Shown one piece after another: positions 4,412-55,640 of a DNA stretch of 64,000 nucleotides. Source of the stretch: Bacteroidales bacterium (GTDB lineage: Bacteria > Bacteroidota > Bacteroidia > Bacteroidales > UBA932). The notes under the pieces are model-generated. The model did not search any database. It was given only the letters and a program-made list of their open reading frames with translations, and was not told where the DNA came from. The stretch lies in contig JAFRXI010000071.1 in assembly GCA_017437755.1 (NCBI GenBank), positions 145,919 through 209,918 of the forward strand, given 5' to 3'. The stretch's first letter is position 1. The number at the start of each line of letters is the position of its first letter. A program made the position numbers and the translations under genes.

Positions 4412-4485
4412 TCCTCAGTAGCTCAGTTGGTTAGAGCACCTGACTGTTAATCAGGGGGTCCTAGGTTCAAGTCCTAGCTGGGGAG
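4412..4485 (+). tRNA. tRNA-Asn (GTT)
   Basis: This is a 74-nt cloverleaf. The acceptor arm TCCTCAG pairs with CTGGGGA (one G-U), the D arm contains AGCTCAGTTGGTTAGAGC, and the anticodon stem CTGAC/TCAGG-like surrounds the loop with GTT at 4446-4448. The T arm CTAGG-TTCAAGT-CCTAG is perfect. The discriminator base is G, followed by CA, so the full CCA end is not encoded. Confidence 0.95.
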
Positions 4486-4492
4486 CAGGATC

Positions 4493-4532
4493 GGACAAAT
4501 TGCAGTTTTGGGCAGTTTGTCCGTTTTTTTTT
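4493..4532 (+). terminator. Rho-independent-like terminator after tRNA-Asn
   Basis: Arms GGACAAA (4493-4499) and TTTGTCC (4516-4522) are perfect complements and are followed by G and a run of nine T. It begins 8 bases after the tRNA. Read-through could reach the glycosyltransferase at 4549. Confidence 0.75.
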
Positions 4533-6620: not shown

Positions 6621-7724
6621 TTACTCGCTGTAATTGTGGTCGATTACGACGGTCACCTTCATATCGGGGACCAAAGCCTGTATCTCGTCCGTAAGCCGGA
6701 TGGAAAGGAAGGCATCGTCGTGACATGAGATGTCGGGCACCACATCCACGGAAAGCATGCGGTCTTTCTCCGAACAATAGAATCCATGGACCTGGACGAT
6801 CTCCTTATGGGTGGCCAGGGCCTTTGTCACCCTGGACTGAAGGTCGGCCCGCTGGTTTTCTCCGGTTGCAACGGCATAGATTCCCACCGTCATGATGATT
6901 CCGTGCCGCTCGAACATCAGCGTGGAGAGCCTGCGGGTCAGGCCATGGATTTCGTGCGCCGACATAGAGTCCAGGACACTGATATGCAACGAGCCTATCA
7001 TCACGTCGGGCCCGTAGTTGTGCAGGATTATGTCAAACACTCCCCTGACGCCGTCAACTTCCATAATCTCCCTCTTGATTTCCTTGATGAGGTCGGGCGA
7101 CACCCGCGCCCCAAGCAGCTCATTTACAGGAGTTGAGAGCATCTCGATGCCTGCCTTGATGATCACGGCGGAGATCAGTGCACCGAGTATGCCGTCCAGC
7201 GAAATGCCCCAGATCAGCATGATGCCGGCCGAAACAAGGGTAGCCGCAGTGATGACGGCATCGAACAGGGCGTCCGACCCGGAAGCCGTCAGGGCATCGC
7301 TCTTCAGCTGTTTGCCTTTCTGCCTGACATACCATCCCAGCAGGAGCTTGACCACGATGGCCACTATTATTACGATGAGTGCAGGAATGGTATAACTCGG
7401 TTCCGTGGGTTCTATGATTTTCTTCACCGACTCGATAAGCGAGGTTATGCCGGCCGACAATACGATTACTGCGATGATGATTGCGCTGAAGTACTCGATG
7501 CGTCCAAAGCCAAAAGGGTGCTCGCGGTCTGCCGGACGCTGCGACAGCTTGGTACCGATGATGGTGATGACGCTTGAGAGGGCGTCGCTCAGGTTGTTCA
7601 CCGCATCCATGACGACGGCCACGCTGCCGGCGATGATGCCTGTCACAGCCTTGAATGCTGCCAGCAGCACATTTGCGACTATCCCGATTATACTTGTGCG
7701 TATGATTTGAGTACTCCGGTCCAT
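6621..7724 (-). CDS. cation diffusion facilitator (CDF) transporter, second type
   Basis: This is a 367-aa protein from the ATG at 7724 (MDRSTQIIRTSIIGIVANV). An upstream extension to 7820 reads into the palindromic repeat and is rejected. TM2 has VVMDAVNNLSDALSS and TM5 has TASGSDALFDA; thus the TM2 motif is N-x3-D-like rather than H-x3-D as in its neighbour, suggesting a different metal. The cytoplasmic domain is long (about 160 residues) and contains GVRGVFDIILHNYGP and VTVVIDHNYSE. A minus-strand -7 box TATCTTTG sits at 7747-7754, but no matching -33 was found. It is probably the first gene of a two-CDF operon. Confidence 0.88.
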   Translation of the reverse strand: MDRSTQIIRTSIIGIVANVLLAAFKAVTGIIAGSVAVVMDAVNNLSDALSSVITIIGTKLSQRPADREHPFGFGRIEYFSAIIIAVIVLSAGITSLIESVKKIIEPTEPSYTIPALIVIIVAIVVKLLLGWYVRQKGKQLKSDALTASGSDALFDAVITAATLVSAGIMLIWGISLDGILGALISAVIIKAGIEMLSTPVNELLGARVSPDLIKEIKREIMEVDGVRGVFDIILHNYGPDVMIGSLHISVLDSMSAHEIHGLTRRLSTLMFERHGIIMTVGIYAVATGENQRADLQSRVTKALATHKEIVQVHGFYCSEKDRMLSVDVVPDISCHDDAFLSIRLTDEIQALVPDMKVTVVIDHNYSE

Positions 7725-52080: not shown

Positions 52081-53079
52081 CTATTGTTTGAATTTAGAAT
52101 ATATCCGATGCACTCCCTTAAGGCAGGGACCTAAAAGAGACAAGCAGAGGACAGCGGCTTTAGGATGATTGAGCATGAATGTGATGTAAGGTGACCACTT
52201 CATGTCCCTAATACTATCTAACACATCATTTCCAAGATGATTATAAAACAATTGATACTTGTCTGTTTTCCATAGTTTCTTGAAAGCCTTCTCAATATTG
52301 TATCTCCCGTCCGCCTTCATAATTTCTGCGAATGGAGTTGATATAGATGAATAGAGTTTAGAATCACGAATCTTTCTGTATCCAAACTTTACCCAATCTG
52401 CTTTATGTCTCCAACTCTGTCCATGAGTAATAGAGGTTGGATTCATTACCCAACAATAGATGGGGAGTGGCAGATAGTCTATCTTATCCGCATGTATCAG
52501 ATGCCATGCGATCCAGTCAGAGTCTTCCATTAAAACGCCTTCTGCCATGGGATGTGATACTTGTTGTAAAAAGGCACGCCTATATAAATAGCTCCAAGGA
52601 GCAAGACTAAATCCAGGATTAAAACAGGTCTCACAAAAGGTCTTTCCATCAATAGAAAAACTATTATGCCTATCTAACCCTTTCTCGACGGATTCTCCAT
52701 TTTCAAATACTACATCATATTTACATGCGAGCATATCAGGGGATCTTTTCAGTGCCTCCCGCATTGCTATCCTCAGATTATCTGAAATAACATAGTCATC
52801 TTGATCGGCAAAAATGATATATTTGCCGATACTTAAGCGAATGCCTGTATTCTTGGCTCCTCCTTGGCATCTGTTTTCCGGATGCCGGACAATTCTAATA
52901 TTAAGGTGGTTGCAAATATAGTCCGCCAAAACACTCTCAGCAGAGATTGGAGAACAGTCGTCAATAATGATGATCTCAAAACTGTCTCTATCAATCGCAG
53001 TGGAATAGATACTATTCAAACAGCGAACGATTGTATCATGTCCGTTAAAATAAGGAATAATGAAAGAATACTCAGCCAT
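52081..53079 (-). CDS. GT2-family glycosyltransferase
   Basis: This is a 332-aa GT-A enzyme: MAEYSFIIPYFNGHDTIVRCLNSIY, DSFEIIIIDDCSPISAE, GKYIIFADQDDYVISDNLRIAM (DQDD) and MEDSDWIAWHLIHADK. The ATG at 53079 follows repeat copy 1 by only 3 bases, so the gene's translation start sits at the end of the duplicated wzm tail. AT-rich. Confidence 0.9.
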   Translation of the reverse strand: MAEYSFIIPYFNGHDTIVRCLNSIYSTAIDRDSFEIIIIDDCSPISAESVLADYICNHLNIRIVRHPENRCQGGAKNTGIRLSIGKYIIFADQDDYVISDNLRIAMREALKRSPDMLACKYDVVFENGESVEKGLDRHNSFSIDGKTFCETCFNPGFSLAPWSYLYRRAFLQQVSHPMAEGVLMEDSDWIAWHLIHADKIDYLPLPIYCWVMNPTSITHGQSWRHKADWVKFGYRKIRDSKLYSSISTPFAEIMKADGRYNIEKAFKKLWKTDKYQLFYNHLGNDVLDSIRDMKWSPYITFMLNHPKAAVLCLSLLGPCLKGVHRIYSKFKQ

Positions 53080-53082
53080 CAA

Positions 53083-53171
53083 ATCCCTACACCGTATCCA
53101 TAAAACTCTTCTGGACCTTACCCCTCAATCCCCCGGACGGCGTCAAATAATACCTTGGCATTTGCGACTTT
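53083..53171 (-). repeat. Wzm/ATPase 3'-end direct repeat, copy 1
   Basis: These 89 bp match copy 2 (53458-53546) at 82 positions by my count. On the minus strand the block encodes the end of the AAA ATPase (VANAKVLFDAVRGIEG, stop TAA) and then, in another frame, KVQKSFMDTV and stop TAG, the wzm C-terminus. One base in the 32-bp wzm part differs from copies 2 and 3. It ends 3 bases before the GT2 start, and is probably the original wzm end. Confidence 0.9.
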
Positions 53172-53424
53172 TCGCTGACACATTTGTGGTCAAATTTTTT
53201 GATCGCAAATCACACAACTCGTATTTCGTAAGTACCAACAAGTAATCAGAAGGGAATTTGTCGGGATTATTCTTGACAGCCTGGTTAATCTCTCTGGTCT
53301 CAACTCCATACAGCACCGCCACACCAGCATCGGCGATAACCGGTATTTCCCTGATAACGGTTATTATGCTCTCGACCTCGTCGTAGGGAATCATTTCTTT
53401 CTCTTTTTGTCTTGTTTTCTCCAT
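53143..53424 (-). pseudogene. Truncated ORF6N-domain protein
   Basis: This is a 93-aa frame. Residues 25-75 (REIPVIADAGVAVLYGVETREINQAVKNNPDKFPSDYLLVLTKYEL) are the ORF6N domain found in phage and mobile-element proteins. It then goes through LRSKNLTTNVSAKSRK into the sequence of repeat copy 1, where it stops at once. Full ORF6N proteins normally continue with another ~80-200 residues. The break falls in a 17-bp stretch that resembles the ATPase 3' end (GCGAAA, then GTCGCAAATG). Probably a remnant; a short functional domain is not excluded. Confidence 0.72.
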
Positions 53425-53457
53425 AATTTAAGTTGTTATTGAAGTTTATTATTAATA

Positions 53458-53546
53458 ATCCCTACACCGTATCCATAAAGCTCTTCTGGACCTTACCCCT
53501 CAATCTCCCGGACGGCTTCAAATAATACTCCCGCATTTGCGACTTT
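53458..53546 (-). repeat. Wzm/ATPase 3'-end direct repeat, copy 2
   Basis: On the minus strand this holds the last codons of the AAA ATPase (VANAGVLFEAVREIEG) followed by a 32-bp stretch (53463-53494) identical to the end of wzm, coding KVQKSFMDTV then TAG. The first two bases of that 32-bp unit complete the ATPase stop codon TAA. It separates the ATPase gene from the ORF6N fragment. Confidence 0.92.
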
Positions 53547-54704
53547 CGCGTCAAAGGTGTGATTCATCTTCGCAAGCCACAGCTCGAAAAACTTATCCTG
53601 CAGTTTGTAGTGAGAACGGCCTACCTTCGCGACCATATTCAACTTGTCACCACAAAGGTTCCGCAGTGCATTCTGTACCGATGACGCATTGTCAAGACCA
53701 TAGCGCTTCATCGTCGAGGCTGATGTCAGGCCTGTGGCCAGCCCTTCATTGGCAATACAGAACAGCACTCGCCGCTCCTTCTGGTTGTCCAGCCGGTTGA
53801 GATTCTCTCGGAAATCCTTGTCTTTATCGAAGAGGATCAGTTGAATGGTGGCAATAATCGCATCAACATCAACGGCCCTTGTTTTTACCGCACCTGCAAA
53901 TGCTGCCTTCATCACCTGTTGCATATCGTAGGTATTACCGCAGAAAAGATGGTATACAAGATCGATGGCGGTATCCTCTATTTCTTTTCCGTAGAGCCGA
54001 AACATAGATCTGCAGAACTCCCGATAGGACTCGATCGAAATGATATTCAGGTCCATCGATTTTGCACTTTTATAAAAAGGCTCATTGGGCATGTCAAACA
54101 TCTGCGAGAGCAGGTGACGGGAACTGCCGGAGAAGATGAAATGCGTGTTGTTCATCTGCTGTACAAAAGAACGAAGGATGGCAGACATGCGTTCCGGATA
54201 GTATTGAATCTGCTGAAATTCGTCGAAGACAACAATATTGGGTTTGTTCGTTTGCTCCAAAAAATTGAACATTTCCTGCAGGGTGAAACTGATCCGCGTT
54301 TCACCATCAAAGCCAATTCTCGCTCCGCTCAATTCTCCTCCCGGCGTGGTTTGAACCTCGAAATAGAGATTCCGCAACATAGACAGGACTGATTTTCTTC
54401 CTCGCTCAAATTTTGCGAAAGAAGCACTGAGAAAGCCATTTTGAAACTCCCTGATGAAATCGGCTGCGCACTTTGTGCCATAAATGTCGATATAGAGGGT
54501 GTTGTATTGTCCCGCAATCTCAGGCTGGAGGAAAACGTGCTTGATGAGGCTCGATTTCCCAATCCTACGGGGAGATTTCAGCACGATATTGTAGCCGTTT
54601 TTGAGACCATTGATCAAGTCAAGGGTCTCTTTCTTCCTGTCGCAGAAATATTCATCAGGAATGGAGATTGTTGTAAAAAACGGATTTTCAGGTTTTTTGT
54701 TCAT
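53493..54704 (-). CDS. AAA ATPase of the archaeal-ATPase (ATPase_2) type
   Basis: This is a 403-aa P-loop protein: LKSPRRIGKSSLIKHVF (Walker A), NIVVFDEFQQI (Walker B), FIFSGSSRHLLSQMF (sensor) and a C-terminal winged-helix region (STMKRYGLDNASSVQNALRNL). The family is abundant and multi-copy in Bacteroidales and archaea, often with unknown role; the winged helix suggests DNA binding. It has its own promoter at 54712-54743. It is bracketed by wzm-end repeats (copies 2 and 3) and is GC-poor against wzm. Not a capsule enzyme; more likely a mobile cassette gene. Confidence 0.85.
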   Translation of the reverse strand: MNKKPENPFFTTISIPDEYFCDRKKETLDLINGLKNGYNIVLKSPRRIGKSSLIKHVFLQPEIAGQYNTLYIDIYGTKCAADFIREFQNGFLSASFAKFERGRKSVLSMLRNLYFEVQTTPGGELSGARIGFDGETRISFTLQEMFNFLEQTNKPNIVVFDEFQQIQYYPERMSAILRSFVQQMNNTHFIFSGSSRHLLSQMFDMPNEPFYKSAKSMDLNIISIESYREFCRSMFRLYGKEIEDTAIDLVYHLFCGNTYDMQQVMKAAFAGAVKTRAVDVDAIIATIQLILFDKDKDFRENLNRLDNQKERRVLFCIANEGLATGLTSASTMKRYGLDNASSVQNALRNLCGDKLNMVAKVGRSHYKLQDKFFELWLAKMNHTFDAKVANAGVLFEAVREIEG

Positions 54705-54711
54705 GGTTTTG

Positions 54712-54743
54712 CGAAGATACGGATAATTTTCCTTTATTACAAA
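54712..54743 (-). promoter_or_regulatory. Promoter for the AAA ATPase
   Basis: On the minus strand TTTG (54740-54743), a 20-nt spacer and TATCTTCG (54712-54719) give a near-consensus promoter with one mismatch in the -7 box. It lies 7 bases before the ATPase start, so the leader would be very short. It shows that the inserted gene can be expressed apart from the capsule operon. Confidence 0.6.
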
Positions 54744-54767
54744 TTAATAATTAAAATTTAATAAAAC

Positions 54768-55640
54768 TTACACCGTATCCATAAAGCTCTTCTGGACCTT
54801 GTTGAACACGACGATGCCCGCGATCAGGAGCAGGGTCATAAACACGAAACTGTAAATCAGCCAACGCCAGCCGACGAAGTCGCCGCAGCCGAGGAAACCG
54901 TACTTGAAGGTCTCGATGACGGGGGTGACGGGGTTGAGGCACATCAGTTTATGCACGGGGATACCCATCCATTGCATACTCTTGGTCTGGCTCAGCGGGT
55001 ATACGATAGGGGTGGCATACATCCATAGCTGCACGATAAAGGTGAAAAGCACCTGGAGGTCGCGGTACTTGGTGGTCATGGAGCTGATGATGGTGCCGAA
55101 GCCCAGGGCCAGGCCGGCCATCATGGCCAGCAGCAGCGGGAACAGCAGGACATACCAGTTGAGATGGGCCGCGCAGTTCGGGTCAAAGACAGCGTAAATC
55201 GCATAGATAAGCACAAAGAACCCGAACTGTATCCCAAACCGCAGCAGGTTGCTGACCACGTCGGCGATGGGCATCACCAGGCGCGGGAAATACACCTTGC
55301 CAAAGATGCCGGCATTTGTGACAAAGGTGTTGGAAGTCTTTGTGAGGCACTCGGAGAAGTAGTTCCACATGCAGGTACCGGCCAGATAGAACAGCGGCCG
55401 GGGCACGCCGTCGGTAGGGATTCCGGCGATTCCGCCGAAAACGATCATATACATGATCACCGTGAGGGCAGGCTGCACCACGAACCACACCGGGCCCAGG
55501 ATGGTCTGCTTGTACTGCGTGATGATATTGCGTTTGACGAACAGGGAGCACAGGTCCCGGTAGGCCCATAACTCCTTGAAGTCAACCGAAAACAGGTTGT
55601 CCTTAGGTTTGATGACAACGTCCCACTTCTGCTCAGCCAT
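54768..55640 (-). CDS. wzm: Wzm-like ABC-2 polysaccharide export permease
   Basis: This is a 290-aa inner-membrane protein with six helices. LWAYRDLCSLFVKRNIITQYKQTILGPVWFVVQPALTVIMYMIVFG is the conserved amphipathic N-terminus and TM1, and ATPIVYPLSQTKSMQWM and LMCLNPVTPVIETFKYGFLG are typical of ABC-2 O-antigen/teichoic permeases. With Wzt it flips finished lipid-linked glycan. Its final 10 codons are the unit copied downstream. GC-rich. Confidence 0.93.
   Translation of the reverse strand: MAEQKWDVVIKPKDNLFSVDFKELWAYRDLCSLFVKRNIITQYKQTILGPVWFVVQPALTVIMYMIVFGGIAGIPTDGVPRPLFYLAGTCMWNYFSECLTKTSNTFVTNAGIFGKVYFPRLVMPIADVVSNLLRFGIQFGFFVLIYAIYAVFDPNCAAHLNWYVLLFPLLLAMMAGLALGFGTIISSMTTKYRDLQVLFTFIVQLWMYATPIVYPLSQTKSMQWMGIPVHKLMCLNPVTPVIETFKYGFLGCGDFVGWRWLIYSFVFMTLLLIAGIVVFNKVQKSFMDTV
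54769..54800 (-). repeat. Wzm 3'-end direct repeat, copy 3 (in wzm)
   Basis: This is the 32-bp 3' end of wzm itself (KVQKSFMDTV; stop TAA, against TAG in the other copies). It is identical to 53463-53494 and differs at one base from 53088-53119. Upstream of it the wzm sequence is unlike the ATPase tail, so the shared unit ends exactly at AAGGTCC on the coding strand. Confidence 0.92.

Follow-up and report, generated by a model that had tools for sequence, protein, structure and literature searches.

Probable nested insertions with long target duplications at the end of a capsule export gene in a Bacteroidales genome

The 64-kb stretch of DNA considered here (the window) belongs to a 2.88-Mb metagenome-assembled genome (MAG, labelled G000) of a Bacteroidales bacterium. 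On its minus strand it carries wzm, the gene of a capsule or polysaccharide export permease, followed in order by an AAA+ ATPase gene, an ORF6N gene and a GT2 glycosyltransferase (GT) gene, and the last bases of wzm occur three times in this region. We consider that this arrangement arose by two successive insertions at the end of wzm, each with a long duplication of the target, and we place the probability of this reading at about 0.72. The same pattern recurs with different cargo at further genes, and at three places (beside an acyltransferase gene, lgt and ispE) empty sites were seen. The ATPase, which an earlier note on this sequence had put forward as the candidate mobility function, is probably not the driver of insertion, since the second insert of the window and the inserts at lgt and ispE are devoid of it and the enrichment of such repeats around ATPases is not robust.

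The end of wzm and its copies

The features on which this reading depends are the following, with inserts and duplications named according to it.

54768..55640, minus strand: wzm, ABC-2 capsule/polysaccharide export permease, target of insertion 1 (PF01061, ABC2_membrane, E 5e-15)
54769..54800, minus strand: target duplication 1, copy within wzm, 32 bp (repeat search)
53495..54768, minus strand: insert 1, 1274 bp, a promoter region followed by the ATPase gene, of whose stop codon it holds the first base (breakpoints set by the 32-bp duplication)
53493..54704, minus strand: AAA+ ATPase, 403 aa, the final two stop-codon bases coming from the target (PF01637, ATPase_2; PF13173, AAA_14)
53463..53494, minus strand: target duplication 1, second copy (32/32 identical)
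53457..53546, minus strand: target duplication 2, copy at the ATPase 3′ end, 90 nt (83/90 identical to 53082-53171)
53172..53456, minus strand: insert 2, 285 bp, an ORF6N gene from its leader to about codon 84 (breakpoints set by the 90-nt duplication)
53143..53424, minus strand: 3′-truncated ORF6N gene, its frame continuing into the duplicated ATPase end (PF10543, E 8.5e-18)
53082..53171, minus strand: target duplication 2, second copy, including the probable ancestral wzm end (53088-53119) that adjoins the GT gene (repeat search)
52081..53079, minus strand: GT2 glycosyltransferase, downstream neighbour of wzm before the insertions (PF00535, Glycos_transf_2, E 1.8e-24)

The terminal 32 bp of wzm are repeated at 53463-53494, with 32 of 32 bases identical, and at 53088-53119, with 31 of 32, all copies being in one orientation, as the earlier note had stated. 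When up to three mismatches are allowed, this 32-mer has exactly three matches in the whole 2.88-Mb genome and none in the reversed control, and the chance expectation for an exact pair of this length in 64 kb is about 1e-10 (uniform composition). The two copies nearer to the GT gene match each other over a longer stretch of 90 nt, 83 of them identical, for which the note's count of 82 in 89 bp was essentially right. This stretch consists of 52 nt of the ATPase end, the 32-mer and GGGATT; it thus extends from the ATPase end to five bases past the wzm stop. The stop codons are also as previously described: TAG in both copies nearer to the GT gene and TAA in the copy within wzm, the latter being created by the insert junction. 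The duplicated 32-bp stretch terminates within the wzm stop codon, and its first two bases finish that of the ATPase gene.

The ancestral end of wzm is probably represented by the copy beside the GT gene, and the insertion probably built the new one, a proposal of the note that the present analysis supports. Behind wzm, the ATPase is absent from all 13 other wzm loci, which were read over stretches of up to about 500 nt. The GT gene finds a match at E ≤ 1e-50 in one of 300 genomes of its genus, that one being its own.

According to the two-insertion reading, a foreign fragment carrying the ATPase gene would first have entered at the wzm end, leaving 32 bp of this end on both sides, with wzm intact and with target bases completing the stop codon of the newcomer. 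Later, in the order that we infer, the 285-bp fragment with the 3′-truncated ORF6N gene would have entered just behind the ATPase gene, and 90 bp would have been duplicated in the process (ATPase end, wzm end and five bases past the stop). Joining of the fragments may be the work of break repair or replication by the cell itself, with no part played by the ATPase: a captured fragment may have been enclosed when a staggered break was filled in, or synthesis may have switched to a foreign template and then back to an earlier point. Selection would retain the cases in which genes are spared, and gene ends would predominate among them, since a duplication at such a place leaves the target intact.

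The cargo of the two inserts

In the Pfam scan, the ATPase matched ATPase domains, with neither a nuclease nor a recombinase domain among its matches. Its AlphaFold2 model (mean pLDDT 90.5) has as nearest solved folds 2fna (SSO1545) and 2qen (PABY2304), followed by Cdc6/Orc1, and the predicted fold is like that of ATPases with a C-terminal winged helix. The two archaeal proteins belong to the ATPase_2 family and have both fold and sequence profile in common with the ATPase of the window; these matches are uninformative on mobility. The tail of the protein is about 10 aa shorter than that of its closest relative (L140, L numbers being the loci compared; 58% identical).

The open reading frame (ORF) of the ORF6N gene encodes 93 aa. 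The note had called this gene truncated, and we judge it likewise, because none of the 30 BLASTP matches, which are proteins of 166-343 aa, remains similar beyond residue 88. As this gene is cut and the ATPase tail is shorter than in L140, the 3′ ends of the inserted fragments look arbitrary. The ORF6N protein matches the PADLOC candidate PDC-S05 strongly (E 1.9e-25), and the matches of ATPases to PADLOC candidates are weak (best 7e-7 for the protein of the window). From these sequence matches it is suggested that both cargo genes may serve in defence or be selfish.

ORF6N genes were also considered as a second family of such cassettes. Five of 29 loci scored at least 24 on flank repeats, and in the five read closely the repeats looked multi-copy, tandem or promoter-like, so that none was counted; nor was a sixth locus (L135), where the repeat is a copy of the gene's own 3′ end. 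Tandem rows of ORF6N genes, spaced by about 500-700 bp, occur in three places (G020:C110, G065:C114 and G132:C33).

Related ATPases between copies of another gene's end

The ATPase family is present in 121 of 299 family genomes (E ≤ 1e-30), and the best 80 of 587 loci taken from a scan of named genomes are all from Bacteroidota, going by titles. Phage records gave no match, and neither did an initial scan of genome contigs with the single protein. The note had proposed to look for other ATPases of this family bracketed by copies of other genes' ends, and some of them are. One of these, with a clear empty site, is L027, where the ATPase lies between copies of the exact last 26 bp (26/26, stop included) of an acyltransferase gene (PF01757). 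Two of 11 relatives (L221 and L222) have the acyltransferase gene with a single gene end and hisG about 250 bp further on. The empty site of the wzm-GT pair, for which the note had recommended a search, was not found.

In addition, the ATPase insert of L208 is flanked by a repeat of 151 bp (147 identical) from the end of a glycosyltransferase gene; this insert ends in a GT-like reading frame, by eye the start of a GT-like gene that resembles the GT downstream. Shorter repeats are found at the end of hipA in L179 (22/23 bp), at the end of a convergent oxidoreductase gene in L207 (34/35 bp) and at the end of a convergent gene of 708 aa in L150 (56/60 bp). In the last case, an inner 14-bp repeat lies closer to the ATPase (by eye), and the 60-bp pair may predate the ATPase insertion. 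In L205 the repeated sequence, about 450 bp upstream, is the ATPase's own end and not that of a neighbour. The neighbouring ORFs of the seven closest relatives of the ATPase (L140-L146) differ, as judged by eye.

Some repeats were not counted as target duplications. Those of L012, L177 and L198 were set aside because they are hairpin-like. As seen by eye, AT-rich repeated motifs, which differ by locus, lie just upstream of the ATPase in L027, L179, L188, L208 and L215 and may be binding sites for the predicted winged helix. L187 and L188 encode an identical ATPase protein and have different flank repeat scores; they are possibly the same gene at different places.

The same pattern without the ATPase

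A survey of direct repeats spaced 300-5000 bp apart, covering 1,561,773 bases, nearly all of them from the window's own genome and with the window included, yielded 49 pairs. Of these, 20 were excluded by rule, being inside paralogous ORFs, and 19 of the other 29 were recognised by eye as paralogs or within-gene repeats. What remained, beside the window and the genome's second ATPase locus (L002), were lgt, ispE, a HicB-like ORF and two REP/RAYT-like units.

At lgt, 35 bp of the gene's end flank 2.07 kb with an Rhs-core-like gene (L261:5304-5338 and 7410-7444, G000 contig C17), the match to the Rhs core being 28.8 bits, below the cut-off of 32.5. In two of 11 relatives read (L292 and L297), lgt directly precedes a TolC-like gene (so named by eye). 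In the window's genome, the copy beside the TolC-like gene reads as the native lgt end, and the copy within lgt has the rebuilt one. At ispE, a gene that Pfam assigns to the GHMP kinases, 46 bp of the gene's start flank 1.76 kb of small ORFs (L325:2645-2690 and 4451-4496, G000 contig C27), and sufD stands directly upstream of ispE in five of 10 relatives read. Both target genes remain whole. Since the duplication at ispE is at the start of the gene, the process is not confined to 3′ ends.

Taken by place, the duplications at genes measure 23, 26, 32, 35, 35, 46, 60, 90 and 151 bp, and those in spacers 38 and 68 bp, although the latter may be dispersed repeats. The note had pictured an element that targets, and rebuilds, the end of a capsule export gene. 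The rebuilding of the gene end is supported. A capsule-targeting element is not, as the targets include an acyltransferase gene by hisG, hipA, an oxidoreductase gene, lgt and ispE; as these genes are unrelated, targeting specific to the capsule was rejected.

Repeats around ATPases compared with other genes

Two tests were made of flank repeats. In the narrow one (score of at least 13, expectation from swapped pairs, L188 left out and L161 dropped as a slicing artefact), 11 of 162 ATPase loci reached the threshold where 0.45 were expected. One of them, L055 (86/90), was subsequently struck as a target duplication, since its repeat has 11 places in its genome and is thus dispersed. This repeat of about 90 bp in G172 has an inverted-repeat look, and two of its copies flank the L055 ATPase (places include C27:973-1062 and C27:2332-2421). 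The 10 loci that are left include the hairpin-like L012, L177 and L198 and the weak L164. Repeats near ATPases therefore exceed chance.

The wide test used flanks of 500 bp and a score of at least 25, leaving out L188, whose ATPase is identical to that of L187, and L150, whose flanks are short. Here, 8 of 150 ATPases were positive against 3 of 211 neighbouring ORFs; the eight include L055, L002 and L205, none of which has a copy of a neighbour's end. Without L055 the comparison becomes 7/150 against 3/211 (p 0.064). One of the three positive neighbours (L190) is itself ATPase_2-like, at 33.1 bits for a cut-off of 33.2, and when it is moved to the ATPases the figures are 8/151 against 2/210 (Fisher p 0.016). 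If only copies of a neighbour's end or of a spacer are counted, they are 5/150 against 2/210 (p 0.11), or 4/149 without the window (p 0.20). Thus, an enrichment around ATPases over other genes is not established and not robust. By mechanical ORF calls, ATPases stand between convergent genes at 53 of 153 sites, compared with 58 of 412 spacers of the window's own genome (p 2e-7) and 77 of 402 gene neighbourhoods (p 2e-4).

Weighing the explanations

Several observations weigh against two insertions with long target duplication. No empty site was found for the exact wzm-GT pair, the wzm relatives having other genes next. At the other places, hisG was not found behind the acyltransferase gene in nine of the 11 relatives, read over short stretches, and the empty arrangement was not shown by nine of the 11 relatives read for lgt or by five of the 10 read for ispE. 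Duplication 1 has 0 of 32 positions changed and duplication 2 has 7 of 90, so that duplication 2 looks the older, the reverse of the order proposed above, albeit with small numbers. Like L055, which had to be struck, the spacer repeats of L188 (60/68) and L215 (38/38) may be dispersed repeats. Most of the ATPase family is without such a repeat, as 151 of 162 loci scored below 13 in the narrow test; old duplications may have decayed at these loci, and a few, such as that of L208, appear only with wider flanks.

If the ATPase gene were an autonomous single-gene mobile element, its product would be an initiator-like AAA+ protein acting on repeats near its own promoter and making the duplications itself, with or without a host nuclease. 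Such an element would be in keeping with several independent family members between copies of a neighbour's end, with the differing neighbourhoods of L140-L146, with a predicted fold close to the Cdc6/Orc1 initiators, with the AT-rich motifs upstream of several starts and with the wide test, both as first counted and after the correction for L055 and L190. Nevertheless, the stricter counts of that test are not significant, the pattern occurs without the ATPase at insert 2, lgt and ispE, the duplications run from 23 to 151 bp with insert ends that are not constant, and the protein has no nuclease or recombinase domain according to Pfam. We hold this explanation to be very improbable, and slightly more so than before L055 was struck, since that correction weakens the enrichment. 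As little chance is given to its more elaborate form, in which the winged-helix AAA+ protein of Bacteroidales ATPase_2 genes would recognise repeats in its own promoter and drive copying of the gene into gene ends, the host would make the cuts, and the long duplications would repair every target.

Other explanations do without an active ATPase. Homology-facilitated illegitimate recombination would start from donor DNA that already had the ATPase behind wzm, with a homology anchor in wzm and a homology-free join slightly upstream of the stop that duplicates the end. This process is reported for three species with natural competence and for conjugation in E. coli, where its frequency is low (PMC3240628), and is proposed for immunity arrays of the type VI secretion system (PMC5361080). 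It resembles the present case in that foreign DNA is joined without homology on one side and strings of leftover gene 3′ ends result, and the GT-like start within the L208 insert would suit it. It requires, however, an anchor in a donor with the cargo already behind the same gene, which leaves the first event unexplained, and no such donor was seen among 11 acyltransferase, 11 lgt and 10 ispE relatives, read over short stretches; we therefore consider it unlikely. For the second step, the ATPase cassette might have been doubled in tandem through the 32-bp repeats, most of the second ATPase copy then giving way to an ORF6N fragment. This would account for the 52 nt of ATPase end retained with the wzm end beside the GT gene, as in a leftover copy, and L205 has its own ATPase end repeated about 450 bp upstream. 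Yet two events are needed where one suffices, a repeat search of 51-57 kb found nothing else of a second ATPase copy, and lgt and ispE display the pattern of a single step, which makes this course of events decidedly doubtful. Lastly, a circle excised between repeats and re-inserted by homologous recombination has been proposed for transposed genes of Arabidopsis, many of which are flanked by mostly genic direct repeats that match the target site (PMC2869330). These genes, like the present ones, are single genes between direct repeats copied from the target, but in a eukaryote. Such a circle would need homology to every new target, whereas the targets here are unrelated genes and the empty relatives have a single copy of the gene end; we find it barely credible for the window.

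Relation to known systems

The pattern matches insertion with long target duplication, a described process, whereas the note knew of no described system of this kind. Restriction-modification genes, for instance in Helicobacter pylori, are reported to have entered genomes as small units that are unlinked to known mobile elements and lie between target duplications of great and variable length, in the order of 100 bp, as recognised by genome comparison (PMC3031569, PMC3874152 and PMC1643837, where Nobusato et al. 2000 and Furuta et al. 2010 are cited). The loci described above likewise have flanking repeats that derive from the target and vary in length, and those at the acyltransferase gene, lgt and ispE, though not the wzm-GT pair itself, correspond to empty sites in relatives. 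They differ in being from Bacteroidales, in keeping the target genes intact at their ends and in their cargo, which is an AAA+ ATPase, a truncated ORF6N gene, an Rhs-core-like gene or small ORFs. The cargo in the window, ATPase and ORF6N, is thus not a restriction-modification system, which is typical of these insertions and is not treated here as defining them.

Integrative elements at the 3′ ends of tRNA or protein genes also duplicate the gene end and leave the gene whole, and they carry a recombinase and use fixed sites. The site-specific integration of an integron-like or tRNA-like kind that the note had invoked fits poorly, given that the duplications vary from 23 to 151 bp, the inserts end inside genes, the targets are unrelated and no recombinase is encoded by the two genes read in the inserts. 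Similarly, transposons and insertion sequences would be expected to show a transposase and a short duplication of fixed length; the genes read in the inserts are an ATPase and an ORF6N gene, and the length varies. On the evidence of titles and the beginnings of abstracts, no report of this pattern in Bacteroidales was found, and the sole match for long target duplication together with Bacteroides concerned a Helicobacter enzyme.

The two-insertion reading offers a possible simple answer to how lone accessory genes settle in gene clusters without breaking them, namely that the insertion copies the end that it enters. One such accessory gene, that of ORF6N, matches a candidate phage-defence family. 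In addition, a pattern known from restriction-modification genes would be extended to Bacteroidales and to other cargo, and the loci with empty sites are places where the joining mechanism could be tested.

Further observations

The second ATPase of the window's genome (L002, G000 contig C63) lies in a scrambled locus, between two different 5′ pieces of a gene that we take to be fnlA-like, with what is presumably a cupin-like 3′ end in front. Among the other repeat pairs of the survey, that at G000 contig C14:27538-29085 surrounds a HicB-like ORF of 134 aa (by eye, with no Pfam hit), behind which pieces of the preceding gene's end recur (56 of 58 bp); a tRNA-like stretch, also seen by eye, is located at the junction. 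The two REP/RAYT-like repeat pairs, around single genes at L261:559-1737 and G000 contig C8:176841-177957, are of known kinds, and one of them has a Y1_Tnp match.

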